Part shown: positions 1,390 to 6,063 of the stretch, one piece after another
Layout: each line of letters opens with the position of its first letter
How positions within the stretch are numbered: the first letter of the stretch is position 1
Assembly (NCBI GenBank): GCA_039679385.1
Contig: JBDKVB010000067.1
Coordinates: 62,001 to 126,000, forward strand
Direction of reading: 5' to 3'
Source: Armatimonadia bacterium
GTDB lineage: Bacteria; Armatimonadota; Zipacnadia; Zipacnadales; JABUFB01
Length of the DNA: 64,000 nt
Program-made: the position numbers and the translations under genes
The notes under the pieces: model-generated
What the model saw: only the letters and a program-made list of their open reading frames with translations
Told to the model about the DNA's origin: nothing
The model's database searches: none

Positions 1390-2730
1390 GTGAATATCCT
1401 GTTCATCGCCATCGACACGCTGAGGGCGGACCGGCTTGGCTGCTATGGTCACAGCCGCCCCACAAGCCCGCACCTGGATCGCTTTGCCCAGCAGGGCGTG
1501 GTGTTCGAGGAGTTCATCGCCCCGCACATCCCCACCCATCCGGGCTACACCACGATGTTCACCGGCGTGGATGTGTTCAGTCACCAGGTGGTCACCCAGG
1601 GCAGCAAGGTGGAGCTGCCGGAGAGCATCAAGACGCTCCCCCAGATCCTGCAGGAGCGAGGGTACTTCACCGCCTCAGCCTGCAATCTGGGCCGCTGGTT
1701 CCACCGGGGCTACGAGGTGAAGGAGAGCTACCGCTGGAGCGCCGATCCAACCCAGTCCTGGCGCAAGGCGGAGGCCGTCAACGAGGCGGCCTTCCGGGTT
1801 CTGGATGCCTGCGAGGGTCAGGACAAGCCCTGGTTCGCCTTCCTGCACTACTGGGACCCGCATACCCCGTACCTGCCGCCCGCTCCCTTTGACCGCATGT
1901 TCTACCACGACGACCCAACCGATGAGCGTCACACCAGCGCCCTGGAGATGATGACGAACTACCCGGCCTTCCAGTACTACTTCGACACCTGGATGCCCGG
2001 CACTCGTGACGTGGAGTTCCCGAAGGCGCAGTACGATGCCGCCATCGCCTACTGCGACGCCTGTCTGGCGAAGCTCTTCGATCGGCTGGAGAGCATGCCC
2101 GGGATCGAGGACACACTGATCCTGCTCACCGCCGACCATGGCGAGGAACTCGACGAGCACGAGATGTGGTTCGACCACCACGGCCTGTACGACACCAACC
2201 TGCATATTCCGCTGCTGATGGCCTACCCGAACCGGTTCCCGTCCGGGCTGCGTCTCGGCGGTCTTGCCCGCCATCTTGACCTGCCCGTGACGATCCTTGA
2301 TCTTGCCGGCGAGAGCGATGCGGCCGCGGAGAACGGGATGCAGGGCACGAGCCTGGTGCCGCTGATCGATGCGCGGAGTCATGCCGGGACCTGCGATGAG
2401 GTGTACATCACCGAGAATGCCTGGATGAAGAAGCGCGGCTTCCGCACGAAGACCTGGAAGTTCGTCGAGTGCCTGTACGATGAGCTGCACAAGCGGCCGC
2501 CCTATGAGCTGTACCACCTCACGACCGATCCCGGTGAGCAGCACAATCTGGCCGAGGAGTGTCCTGAGGTGCTCGAGGGCTTCAAGCAGCGGCTGCGCAA
2601 GCACATCGACAAGCGCATGGCGGAGACCGGCAACCCCGATCCGCAGAGCTACCAGGACATCACCCTGACGCAGGTCGGGAGCAACGTCAAGGTGGCTGTG
2701 CCGGAGAACCAGATACTCCAGAAGGACTAG
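1390..2730 (+). CDS. Sulfatase-fold hydrolase with Thr at the nucleophile position
   Basis: The 446-residue protein belongs to the alkaline phosphatase/sulfatase superfamily. The N-terminal metal site (IAIDTLRADRLGCYG, Asp9) and the second metal site (LLTADHGEE, about residues 248-249) are present. Where Cys-type sulfatases have C-x-P-S-R, this protein has THPGY (residues 49-53): no Cys or Ser is available to become formylglycine, and the Arg is missing too. Thr is the nucleophile in nucleotide pyrophosphatase/phosphodiesterase and phosphonate hydrolase relatives, so a phosphodiesterase or phosphonate monoesterase activity is more likely than sulfatase. It has no clear signal peptide. The start is an ATG after a modest GGAGGC-like site. 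The gene stands alone and ends at a strong terminator. Compare the canonical Cys sulfatase at 30838. Confidence 0.85.
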   Translation: MNILFIAIDTLRADRLGCYGHSRPTSPHLDRFAQQGVVFEEFIAPHIPTHPGYTTMFTGVDVFSHQVVTQGSKVELPESIKTLPQILQERGYFTASACNLGRWFHRGYEVKESYRWSADPTQSWRKAEAVNEAAFRVLDACEGQDKPWFAFLHYWDPHTPYLPPAPFDRMFYHDDPTDERHTSALEMMTNYPAFQYYFDTWMPGTRDVEFPKAQYDAAIAYCDACLAKLFDRLESMPGIEDTLILLTADHGEELDEHEMWFDHHGLYDTNLHIPLLMAYPNRFPSGLRLGGLARHLDLPVTILDLAGESDAAAENGMQGTSLVPLIDARSHAGTCDEVYITENAWMKKRGFRTKTWKFVECLYDELHKRPPYELYHLTTDPGEQHNLAEECPEVLEGFKQRLRKHIDKRMAETGNPDPQSYQDITLTQVGSNVKVAVPENQILQKD

Positions 2731-2762
2731 GTCCGGCCGCAACATCGGCTTCGTAGTCCCGA

Positions 2763-2800
2763 GGGCTCGCAGGCGATAGTCTTGCGAGCCCTTCTTCGTT
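2763..2800 (+). terminator. Rho-independent terminator after the sulfatase-fold gene
   Basis: The arms GGGCTCGCA (2763-2771) and TGCGAGCCC (2783-2791) form a perfect 9-bp stem with an 11-base loop, followed by TTCTTCGTT. Confidence 0.8.
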
Positions 2801-2869
2801 CTGTGGGGCCCTGGTGGAGCAGTGCCTCGGTCGAGGCACCTGGTCAACGAGATTCGTCCCGTTCCCCCC

Positions 2870-2898
2870 TTGACAAGAGGGCGCGGGACCACTATAGT
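2870..2898 (+). promoter_or_regulatory. Sigma-70-type promoter of the arsR operon
   Basis: TTGACA (2870-2875), a 17-base spacer and TATAGT (2893-2898) form a near-consensus promoter 33 bases before the arsR-like ATG. It is among the best promoters visible in the window. Confidence 0.85.
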
Positions 2899-2900
2899 AT

Positions 2901-2916
2901 TTTAGAAATTACTAAA
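2901..2916 (+). promoter_or_regulatory. Putative ArsR operator
   Basis: The inverted repeat TTTAG-N6-CTAAA sits just downstream of the -10 box, across the expected transcription start. It resembles AT-rich ArsR/SmtB operators. Binding of the repressor encoded immediately downstream would block initiation, so the operon is probably autoregulated. Confidence 0.65.
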
Positions 2917-2930
2917 CAGGTGAACGACCG

Positions 2931-3245
2931 ATGGACCCACGGGTCTTCGAGATGCAAGCCAACCTCTGTAAGGTCTTCTCCCACCCGAAGCGGCTGCAGA
3001 TCCTGTGCCTGCTGAAGGACGGCGAGAAGTCCTTCTCCGAGCTCCAGGAGGCTACGGAGCTGTCGAAGGCCAACCTGTCACAGCACCTGACGATCCTGCG
3101 CGAGCGGGATGTACTGCTGGCGCGGCGTGATGGTCAGCAACTCTTCCTCTCGGTGGCCAACCCCAAGATCACCGCTGCCTGCGAGCTGATGCACGAGGTG
3201 CTCTGCGAGCAGATCCAGGAGCGCCGACAGGCCACGGGTGTGTAG
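2931..3245 (+). CDS. ArsR-family transcriptional repressor
   Basis: The 104-residue winged-helix protein has the typical ArsR start (SHPKRLQILCLLKDGEKS) and recognition helix (SKANLSQHLTILRERDVL, about residues 45-62). It has Cys at 13, 26, 84 and 92. A Cys in the ILCLL segment plus one near the C terminus recalls the persulfide-sensing SqrR/BigR subgroup rather than the ELCVCDL metal site of classical ArsR/SmtB. The inducer is therefore possibly a sulfur species, a redox change or a thiophilic metal; this is inference. It is the first gene after a strong promoter with an overlapping inverted repeat, and lies 72 bases before the polyferredoxin gene. Confidence 0.88.
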   Translation: MDPRVFEMQANLCKVFSHPKRLQILCLLKDGEKSFSELQEATELSKANLSQHLTILRERDVLLARRDGQQLFLSVANPKITAACELMHEVLCEQIQERRQATGV

Positions 3246-3317
3246 CCCACGCCCACGGTCCTCTTCTGTTTCCCTGCGTGTTAAGCTGTTGCGCAACTAC
3301 TATATGAGGTGACGCCC

Positions 3318-4022
3318 ATGGCACACTCCCCCAGCGAGACAAAAGGCGGCTTCAACTACCACGAGTGGATCTGGTTGGTGTTGCTCGTAACGATCGGCGG
3401 CGGTTGGTTCTACCCCTGGCTGGGTCTTGCCGTTGCCTTCTGCTTCCTCGGCGCAGTCGTATCCGGGGCCTTCGTGGGGCGCAAGTGGTGCGGGAAGCTC
3501 TGTCCCCGTGGCAGCTTCAACGACCACCTGCTGAGCCGCCTGGTGCCGAAGAGGCACATGCCCGGCTGGGCCAAGCACCCGGCGACGCGGATTGGTGTTC
3601 TCGTGGTCATGATGACCGTCCTCGCGATCAGGGTCCCGGCGGCCTGGGGTGACTGGAACGCGGTCGGTCGGGTCTTCTGGGTGTTGCTCGTGGTGACGAC
3701 GGCAGTCGGCATTGCCGTCGGGCTCTTCACGCACCAGCGAGTGTGGTGCCAGGTCTGCCCGGCGGGGACCATGGCAAGCTGGATCGGTAGACTGCGGCGC
3801 CCCCGGCTGAAGCTTGACGAGAGCTCCTGCAAGAGCTGCAACGTCTGCGCAAAGGCCTGCCCGATGGCCCTGACCCCGGTTGAGGTTGCTCGTGGTGGCG
3901 AGGGAGCTGCCGACTGCCTCAAGTGCAGCGGCTGTGTCGCGAAGTGTCCCGTGGGTGCGCTCACCTTCAAGGAGAGCTGTGCGCTGAATCCGGAAACCGA
4001 CCAGGAGGCGAAGGTTGCATGA
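3318..4022 (+). CDS. NapH/NosR-like membrane polyferredoxin (4Fe-4S protein)
   Basis: The 234-residue integral membrane protein has about four helices and two juxtamembrane Cys motifs (CGKLCP at 58-63 and CQVCP at 144-148), as in NapH, NosR C-terminal halves and RdxA/CcoG. Two C-terminal 4Fe-4S clusters follow (Cys171, 174, 177, 181 and Cys200, 203, 206, 210). The family passes electrons across or along the membrane. I start at the ATG at 3318, six bases after GAGGTG, rather than the GTG at 3309 inside that site. The gene follows arsR and overlaps the next gene by ATGA, so it belongs to one operon. The electron donor and acceptor are unknown; no reductase partner lies nearby. Confidence 0.87.
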   Translation: MAHSPSETKGGFNYHEWIWLVLLVTIGGGWFYPWLGLAVAFCFLGAVVSGAFVGRKWCGKLCPRGSFNDHLLSRLVPKRHMPGWAKHPATRIGVLVVMMTVLAIRVPAAWGDWNAVGRVFWVLLVVTTAVGIAVGLFTHQRVWCQVCPAGTMASWIGRLRRPRLKLDESSCKSCNVCAKACPMALTPVEVARGGEGAADCLKCSGCVAKCPVGALTFKESCALNPETDQEAKVA

Positions 4023-4900
4023 AGACGCTAACTACGCTCACCGGAGCGCTGCTGTTGGTTGCCCTGATACCCGCTGCCAAAGCCACGCCGTGGTACACTC
4101 AGGATCCCCGGACCTTGCCGCAAGGCGGCTGGCGGGTTGAGGCGCACGTGCTGTACTCGGAGGTGGACAACTCCCTGGTCGACGGCGACAAGGGCCCGCT
4201 GCCAGGCGGAGTGACCGATGCCTCGGCGCTGGTGCTGCACAAACGGTTCCGCTACGGCCTCAGGGACGACTTGACCGTGTTTGTGGATGTGCCCTACGTC
4301 TCGAAGCGAGTGCACTTCGCCGACGGCGCAGTGAGGGACAACTCAGGGCTTGGCGATCTCAACCTCCTGGCCAAGTACAAGTACTCGGAGGACAAGAAGG
4401 CCGGCGAACGGAAAGCCGTCGCCCTCTTCTACAAGACCCATACAGGTGACTACCGTGGTCTTTCGGGGCTGCTGGCGACGGGAACCGGTCAGGACAACCT
4501 TGGGCTGCTGCACCTGTGGGAGTGGGACCGCGCGGATACGAACTGGTACGCGAACCTCGGCTACGTGTGGACCGGCGAGCGCAAGGACAACCACAAGAAC
4601 GGTGGCGACCTGGTGCTGTTCAACCTCGCGACGGAGCACTCGCTGGGCAAGACGAGCCCCTGGCGACTCGTCGGGGAGCTCAACGGCCAGTATGAAGGCA
4701 ACGGGAAGCAGGCAGGCGCGCCTGTTGCCGGGAGTGGCCCGACGGTGATCTCGGTCACGCCCGGAGTTCAGTACGCTGAGAAGCGCGGGAAGACGGCCAC
4801 AACCTGGGAGGCCGGAATCCAGGTTCCGGTGGTGAAGCGCGGCGACTTGCCGGCCCTGCAGGACTACCAGCTCTACCTGGGTACCTACACCGTATTCTAG
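4019..4900 (+). CDS. Outer-membrane beta-barrel protein (phenol-degradation MetA-like)
   Basis: The 293-residue product has a signal peptide (cut near AKA-TPWY, about residue 21) and then alternating strands. Motifs such as TVFVDVPYVSKRV and GLGDLNLLAKYKY and a C-terminal Phe (GTYTVF) fit an outer-membrane barrel of the MetA/transporter type. The start is the ATG at 4019, which overlaps the polyferredoxin stop (ATGA). An upstream in-frame extension is just the other gene read out of frame. As the last gene of the ArsR operon it may admit or export the compound handled by the polyferredoxin. The barrel call is good; the substrate is unknown. Confidence 0.75.
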   Translation: MKTLTTLTGALLLVALIPAAKATPWYTQDPRTLPQGGWRVEAHVLYSEVDNSLVDGDKGPLPGGVTDASALVLHKRFRYGLRDDLTVFVDVPYVSKRVHFADGAVRDNSGLGDLNLLAKYKYSEDKKAGERKAVALFYKTHTGDYRGLSGLLATGTGQDNLGLLHLWEWDRADTNWYANLGYVWTGERKDNHKNGGDLVLFNLATEHSLGKTSPWRLVGELNGQYEGNGKQAGAPVAGSGPTVISVTPGVQYAEKRGKTATTWEAGIQVPVVKRGDLPALQDYQLYLGTYTVF

Positions 4901-4937
4901 CGCACCGCCGGCACCTCCCAGCGCAGACCTTTGCAGG

Positions 4938-4975
4938 CGCCCCGGAACCCTCGTGGCTTCCGGGGCGTTACGTTT
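4938..4975 (+). terminator. Terminator of the arsR operon
   Basis: CGCCCCGGAA (4938-4947) and TTCCGGGGCG (4958-4967) form a perfect 10-bp stem with a 10-base loop, followed by TTACGTTTGTT. Confidence 0.75.
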
Positions 4976-4981
4976 GTTGGC

Positions 4982-5332
4982 ATGCACAGCACCTCGCTGC
5001 GGAAACCCAAGGCACAGCGACGACGCCCGGGGTCAGTCTCCCCGGTGCGTCTCCTTGTTCTGTTCCTGTGGCTGGTCGCCGTACTGGGCCCGCTTGGGCT
5101 ATCGCCCGGCATCGGCCACAACCACTCAGAACAGACTGCCGAGGACAGCCACTGCATCGCCTGCATGGCGCTGCGCTCGGGCTTCGAACCGACTGCGCCC
5201 TGCACCGTACCAGTCGTCACGGTCCTATGCCGCCCCCTGGCCGCACCGGCGACTGTAGCAACTCCGACCCGAGACACCTTCGGTCCGCGTCTCACTCGCG
5301 GCCCTCCCTGCGTCACCTCCTCCAGCATCTAG
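4982..5332 (+). CDS. Small membrane-anchored protein with His and HCxxC motifs
   Basis: This predicted protein has 116 residues. A basic N terminus is followed by one hydrophobic helix (about 22-42), then HNH (46-48) and HCIAC (57-61), and a Pro/Thr-rich tail. The layout recalls small DUF2946-like proteins, in which a HCxxC pair after a transmembrane segment is suspected to bind copper or another soft metal. No good ribosome-binding site is visible and the start is close behind the terminator stem, so expression and start are uncertain. It precedes the pseudopilin and follows the ArsR operon. Function unknown. Confidence 0.5.
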   Translation: MHSTSLRKPKAQRRRPGSVSPVRLLVLFLWLVAVLGPLGLSPGIGHNHSEQTAEDSHCIACMALRSGFEPTAPCTVPVVTVLCRPLAAPATVATPTRDTFGPRLTRGPPCVTSSSI

Positions 5333-5406
5333 CCGTAACCAGGCCCGTGGTTTCCCACGGAGCCGCCCATATGCACGTGCACTCATCCCACTGGAGGTGA
5401 CGTTCT

Positions 5407-6063
5407 GTGCTGCATCAGAACCGTCGGAACCGTCGTGCCTTCACCCTTATCGAACTCCTGGTAGTCATTGCCATCATCGCCATCCTCGCGGCCATCCTGT
5501 TTCCCGTCTTCGCACGGGCCCGCGAGAAGGCTCGTCAGACAAGCTGCCTGAGCAACCTGAAGCAGATTGGTCTAGCGCTGATGATGTACTGCCAGGACAA
5601 CGACGAGACGTACCTGCGGGTCGCCCGGGTACGGTATGACCAGAGCGGAAGCTGGGACACCGAGGTGTTCGCACCGTGGCGGCAGCCGCTCGAGCCCTAC
5701 ATGAAGAACAAGCAGGTGTTCTACTGCCCGTCGAAGTCCAACCGGAGCACGTACACTGCCAACGATGACACTGACTACGTGCTCAACGGCTACTTTGCCT
5801 GCGCCACACCGATGACGTACTTCCCGAGCCCTTCGGAGACGATCTGCTTCGGCGAGAGAAGCAACAACCCGGTTGACGCCGGAGACCTGGACTTCTGCAA
5901 GTACATCACCTACAGCCCCTGGGAGGCGGACTGCTTCTGGCCGCACCTGTGTACTGACCGGCACAACGAAGGAGCCAACTACGCCTTCGCCGACGGCCAC
6001 GCAAAGTGGATGAAGAGGGAGCAGACGCTGTCGCCCAGAAACATGCACGAGCCGGGGTCCTAG
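5407..6063 (+). CDS. Type II/IV secretion-like pseudopilin (DUF1559-like, ADGH C terminus)
   Basis: The 218-residue protein has a class III prepilin leader ([10 protein letters not shown]; cleavage before Phe12, Glu at +5), a hydrophobic helix, then [14 protein letters not shown] and a C-terminal motif in which His186 precedes Asp196-Gly197 (ADGHAKW). This is the abundant pseudopilin family of Armatimonadota and Planctomycetota, usually carried as many scattered copies. The GTG start follows GGAGGTGA by six bases. No assembly ATPase or prepilin peptidase lies nearby, so it must rely on genes elsewhere. The exact role (surface filament or secretion) is unknown. Confidence 0.9.

Follow-up and report, generated by a model that had tools for sequence, protein, structure and literature searches.

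A conserved operon of an ArsR-family regulator, a membrane polyferredoxin and an outer-membrane barrel in Armatimonadota, with a possible response to sulfane sulfur

Within the genome of an Armatimonadia bacterium, in a stretch of 64,000 nucleotides (contig JBDKVB010000067.1) called here the window, positions 2870-4969 hold a single operon: a promoter and palindrome, then genes for an ArsR-family regulator, a membrane polyferredoxin and an outer-membrane barrel, and finally a hairpin. I propose that the operon is autoregulated and that it is derepressed by persulfide or other sulfane sulfur, its regulator being followed by an electron carrier and a pore. This account, with sulfur-responsive regulation as its core, is the one I favor on balance. 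The evidence comes from sequence: the anatomy of the operon, the conservation of its three genes, the exchange of one regulator for another, and the sulfur genes found at related loci.

The operon and its control region

A preliminary description of the window had seen an operon of regulator, membrane carrier and barrel, linked by overlapping codons, served by a near-consensus promoter and closed by a terminator. The operon itself is borne out, and the same order is also found in four other genomes. The overlap is real at one junction only. The polyferredoxin and barrel genes share an ATGA, in which the ATG of the barrel overlaps the TGA of the preceding gene, but they are the only overlapping pair, since a gap of 72 nt separates arsR from the polyferredoxin gene. 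The promoter is as described. It lies on the forward strand at 2870-2898, reads TTGACA-17-TATAGT, matches a sigma-70-like consensus at 11 of 12 positions, and is the sole such match within 2400-5400, where shuffled sequences give 0.4. The six loci compared all have TTGACA and a -10 box of the TATA type upstream of the regulator gene, and the DNA after the -10 box is AT-rich and partly palindromic. As for the terminator, there is a strong hairpin after the barrel gene (4936-4969, forward strand; -26.8 kcal/mol, z = -3.8 against shuffled sequence), but its T-tract is poor. The description was right, too, that no reductase is encoded within the three genes; indeed none of them encodes a catalytic subunit of any kind.

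Immediately 3' of the -10 box, between it and the start codon of arsR, lies an operator-like palindrome, TTTAG-N6-CTAAA (2901-2916; TTTAGaaattaCTAAA). It has no second exact match in the genome of 5.6 Mb, about 0.6 being expected from base composition. That its only match is at the promoter fits, though it does not prove, the idea of a putative dedicated operator, and so of autoregulation. Autoregulation had been claimed at the outset, and a predicted operator directly after the -10 box makes it likely. The counterpart in genome G007 has the same form, TTTAG-N6-CTAAA, and that in G016 is a related, imperfect palindrome, again AT-rich.

There is a further repeat in G007, where the -10/operator sequence CTGTATAGTAGTTTAG (L027:690-705) recurs as a perfect inverted copy of 16 nt (1094-1109) just before the start codon of the polyferredoxin gene. 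The window retains ACTACTATA at the equivalent place (3296-3304), and G012 does not have it. The inverted copy is possibly a second operator.

The surroundings of the operon say less. A sulfatase gene adjoins it in both the window and G007, and I considered this as a clue to sulfur, only to drop it, because it is one of about 45 sulfatase matches in the genome. After the terminator comes a small open reading frame (4961-5329) whose product has a hydrophobic stretch and the motif HNHS...HCIACMA. It matches no Pfam or NCBIfam family and is not seen downstream at the other loci. The prepilin encoded at 5407 has a sequence that may be typical of Armatimonadota.

Conservation of the three genes and exchange of the regulator

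A profile search with the barrel through 291 genomes of the phylum found close relatives in five of them and only distant ones in five more. Wherever there is a close barrel (the window's genome, G007, G012, G016 and G017), it adjoins this same polyferredoxin and an ArsR, the trio in G017 being divided between two contig ends. Co-occurrence in related genomes had been put forward as the check on the operon, and it was passed in five cases of five. The five genomes represent four families within one order, and a three-gene order that recurs in four genomes besides the window's is therefore not chance.

The regulator, however, is not the same throughout. The window's ArsR has no rhodanese domain, whereas in G016 and G017 the same operon position is taken by an ArsR-rhodanese fusion, as it is in G008, where the barrel is missing. 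The rhodanese loop of these fusions reads CRG(P/Q)YC. In G259, which belongs to another part of the phylum than the genomes with the trio, the order is ArsR-rhodanese, DsrE (PF02635, E = 7e-23), polyferredoxin and a NifS-type cysteine desulfurase. Among the neighbors of the phylum's remaining ArsR-rhodanese genes are SQR type III-like oxidoreductases, DsrE, MMPL transporters and a rhodanese-MBL protein partly similar to Blh. The function of the fusions may be read, with due caution, from these neighbors. Since sulfur genes surround the related loci, the signal is more plausibly sulfide or sulfane sulfur than a metal, and I consider it likely, by this association, that a sulfur signal controls the operon.

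The window's own operon holds no gene for a sulfurtransferase, a rhodanese or sulfur transport, and searches of its genome for partners in trans, with SQR-III-like and DsrE proteins, returned no match.

At three loci (L110:3426-7422, L109:463-3919 and L114) an ArsR-rhodanese gene stands beside an RND transporter of the MMPL/HAE3 type. In L110, a protein with a signal peptide, belonging to no family and barrel-like by eye, is encoded between the two.

The regulator

The first gene of the operon (2931-3245, forward strand) encodes a winged-helix repressor of the ArsR family (PF01022, E = 2.9e-13), which also matches the general metalloregulator model of NCBIfam. It was called thiol-rich, and it does have four cysteines (13, 26, 84 and 92) in 104 amino acids. 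The relatives with solved structures that match it best are HlyU, BigR, Rv0081, SqrR and YgaV. The hallmark of the persulfide sensors is a pair of cysteines, one in alpha2 and one in alpha5, that become joined by a bridge of polysulfide (PMC10509353). The window's ArsR has such a pair, as do SqrR, BigR and HlyU (SSN cluster 4): C26 and C92 align with C38 and C104 of HlyU, given that they fall on positions 42 and 108 of the 4k2e chain and that an offset of four to HlyU numbering is assumed. Against the NCBIfam equivalog for BigR, the protein scores 69 bits, far below the cut-off of 155. Judged by its sequence, then, it is related to BigR but is not BigR.

The main difficulty is that the pair does not persist in full in the two nearest orthologues. 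The ArsR of G007 has neither C26 nor C92, and that of G012 keeps C26 only, so the chemistry of persulfide sensing cannot be identical in all of them. Either sensing has moved to another pair of cysteines, or C26 and C92 do not read the sulfur signal at all. The three plain ArsR proteins (those of the window, G007 and G012) have just two cysteines in common, C13 and C84.

One might argue from this that the operon answers to hypoxia, peroxide or electrophiles, that is, to redox state or oxidants in general. The response would run through other thiols, C13 with C84; the carrier would relieve a quinone pool that is over-reduced or over-oxidized; and sulfur would be incidental. There is precedent for ArsR proteins with other cysteine sites, such as the peroxide-sensing RexT, but the RexT pair lies in alpha3 (PMC10509353), and the window's ArsR has no cysteine between 26 and 84. 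Moreover, this explanation gives no account of why ArsR should be exchanged for ArsR-rhodanese or why DsrE and desulfurase genes should be neighbors. I regard it as rather unlikely, even as the best of the alternatives.

The membrane polyferredoxin

The second gene (3318-4022, forward strand) encodes a protein of 234 amino acids with four transmembrane helices and with Fer4_5 and dicluster Fer4 domains. It has two cysteine loops, C58xxxC62P and C144xxC147P, and a two-cluster ferredoxin domain at its C-terminus, and 18 relatives keep all twelve of its cluster cysteines without exception. The AlphaFold2 model (pLDDT 79) shows four long helices, with the two positively charged loops and the C-terminal domain together on one side of the membrane. 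In that model, this side is presumably the cytoplasm.

The preliminary description called the protein NapH/NosR-type, of which NapH-type stands and NosR-type is too specific. It has the structural features of NapH: two CX2-3CP loops, four transmembrane segments and two C-terminal 4Fe-4S motifs. The best match in NCBIfam is the NapH/MauN model TIGR02163 (E = 1e-13). The protein thus resembles the NapH, MauN and NosR membrane ferredoxins in its four helices, its cytoplasmic CxxxCP and CxxCP loops and its C-terminal 2x[4Fe-4S]. It differs from them in scoring 51 bits, where the cut-off of that model is 213, and in belonging to an operon without napG, napA, napC, mau or nosZ; no nap genes at all were recognized beside it. 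A fold search with the model matched no solved membrane fold, and by sequence search only the ferredoxin domain matches a solved structure.

Polyferredoxins of this kind occur in 26 of the 291 genomes and are thus more widespread than the barrel. In their tree, rooted at the midpoint, all seven copies linked to ArsR are confined to one of the two sides, a split whose support is only 90/90. Many polyferredoxins that do not belong to this ArsR-linked clade are isolated, with unrelated genes around them, and the more distant ones have no evident sulfur neighbors. A search of plasmid records gave just two weak matches, and a scan of genome contigs only two distant polyferredoxins. One member, in G260 (L094:4577-6505), is a protein of 642 amino acids with the polyferredoxin domain at its start, followed by a long extension.

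The outer-membrane barrel

The third gene (4019-4900, forward strand) encodes a protein of 293 amino acids that begins with a signal peptide and ends in phenylalanine. It was taken for an outer-membrane barrel, rightly so: it is of the COG4313/PF13557 type, scoring 36.7 bits against PF13557 (E = 6.4e-9), above the gathering cut-off of 22. The AlphaFold2 model (pLDDT 79) has 12 strands, and Foldseek matches it to FapF (5o67, E = 3e-12) and to a COG4313 channel (4rl8, E = 7e-11). With FapF and the COG4313 channels (Pput2725, TcpY, SphA), it shares the 12-stranded barrel and the N-terminal segment (TM 0.7). It stands apart from them in its low identity, about 15-17%, and in having no genes for aromatic degradation, sphingosine or amyloid nearby. 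Plasmid records yielded one weak match only (Legionella, 23%).

Two groups of distant barrels deserve mention. In G065 (L054:3164-5024), a PF13557 barrel lies downstream of a repressor of the CsoR/RicR type, another thiol-based regulator. Those at L055-L058, from one family of the phylum, have an N-terminal ACSxCIAHxxG, and several are preceded by a small cysteine-rich membrane protein.

COG4313 channels have been proposed to carry hydrophobic molecules and have been linked to their uptake (PMC4493636). Together with the fold of the barrel, this raises the thought that the operon is for nutrition and not for defense, importing or secreting a hydrophobic sulfur compound (elemental sulfur, a sulfonated aromatic or an organic polysulfide), while the polyferredoxin would supply electrons to an oxygenase or reductase encoded at another locus. 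Against it, no catabolic genes were recognized beside any of the loci, and the adjacent sulfatase is uninformative. I think this explanation improbable.

A model for the operon

I return to the proposal that the operon responds to sulfane sulfur. ArsR would occupy the palindrome that overlaps its own promoter. Sulfane sulfur would bridge the cysteines of alpha2 and alpha5 (C26 and C92), ArsR would leave the DNA, and the three genes would be turned on. The polyferredoxin, in the manner of NapH, would probably connect the quinone pool with Fe-S clusters in the cytoplasm, and its electrons would go to, or come from, a sulfur-handling reaction catalyzed by an enzyme encoded outside the operon. The barrel, as a channel of the COG4313 type, would give passage through the outer membrane to a small, probably hydrophobic compound. 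What induces the operon, which way the electrons flow and what the barrel carries are inferred. The specific roles given to carrier and pore are doubtful, and the catalytic role is a presumed one.

The enzymes known from ArsR operons that respond to persulfide are sulfurtransferases, persulfide dioxygenases and sulfide:quinone reductases. The operon in the window is like those of SqrR, BigR, HlyU and YgaV (for instance bigR with blh and sqr) in the ArsR fold, in the alpha2/alpha5 pair of cysteines and in a putative operator that overlaps the promoter, and sulfur-handling genes lie near its relatives of the fusion type. It is unlike them in that the place of sulfurtransferase/dioxygenase, SQR or sulfur transporter is taken by a polyferredoxin and a barrel, and in that the pair of cysteines is not kept in the regulator's own orthologues. 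A more speculative version, to which I give still less credence than to those separate roles, makes the whole a module for reactive sulfur: the polyferredoxin would link quinones to the reduction or oxidation of sulfane sulfur, replacing SQR; the channel would move hydrophobic sulfur species; and ArsR and ArsR-rhodanese would be interchangeable sensors.

The first guess at function was a redox or sulfur/metal detoxification system. The sulfur part has gained ground, from the C26/C92 pair, the exchange with ArsR-rhodanese, and the DsrE, desulfurase and SQR-like genes at related loci. The metal or arsenic part has not. A CXC motif in alpha3 is the mark of the classical ArsR-SmtB sensors of As(III) and metals. 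Resistance to a metal or metalloid (As, Sb, Cu or Se), in which ArsR would sense the ion, the polyferredoxin feed its reduction and the barrel serve efflux, has in its favor the family of the regulator, its four cysteines and the CsoR-type repressor upstream of the distant barrel in G065, but I reject arsenic or metal sensing as very unlikely, because the window's ArsR has no CXC anywhere and because nothing of the ars, cop or czc kind, transporter or reductase, was recognized beside the loci, where the informative neighbors are sulfur genes.

Significance

None of the three components is new: ArsR operons that respond to persulfide are known, and so are NapH-like proteins and COG4313 barrels. 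The combined operon was not found described in a search of the literature on ArsR-rhodanese with NapH-like genes that left most subscription papers outside its reach. What the conserved operon offers is a persulfide-style switch that would drive a membrane Fe-S carrier of the quinone type and an outer-membrane pore. If the proposal is true, it gives a testable role to orphan NapH-like proteins that have no reductase, and likewise to COG4313 barrels of unknown substrate. The presence of ArsR in some genomes and ArsR-rhodanese in others, on one and the same operon, provides a natural pair in which to study how one sensing chemistry is exchanged for another.
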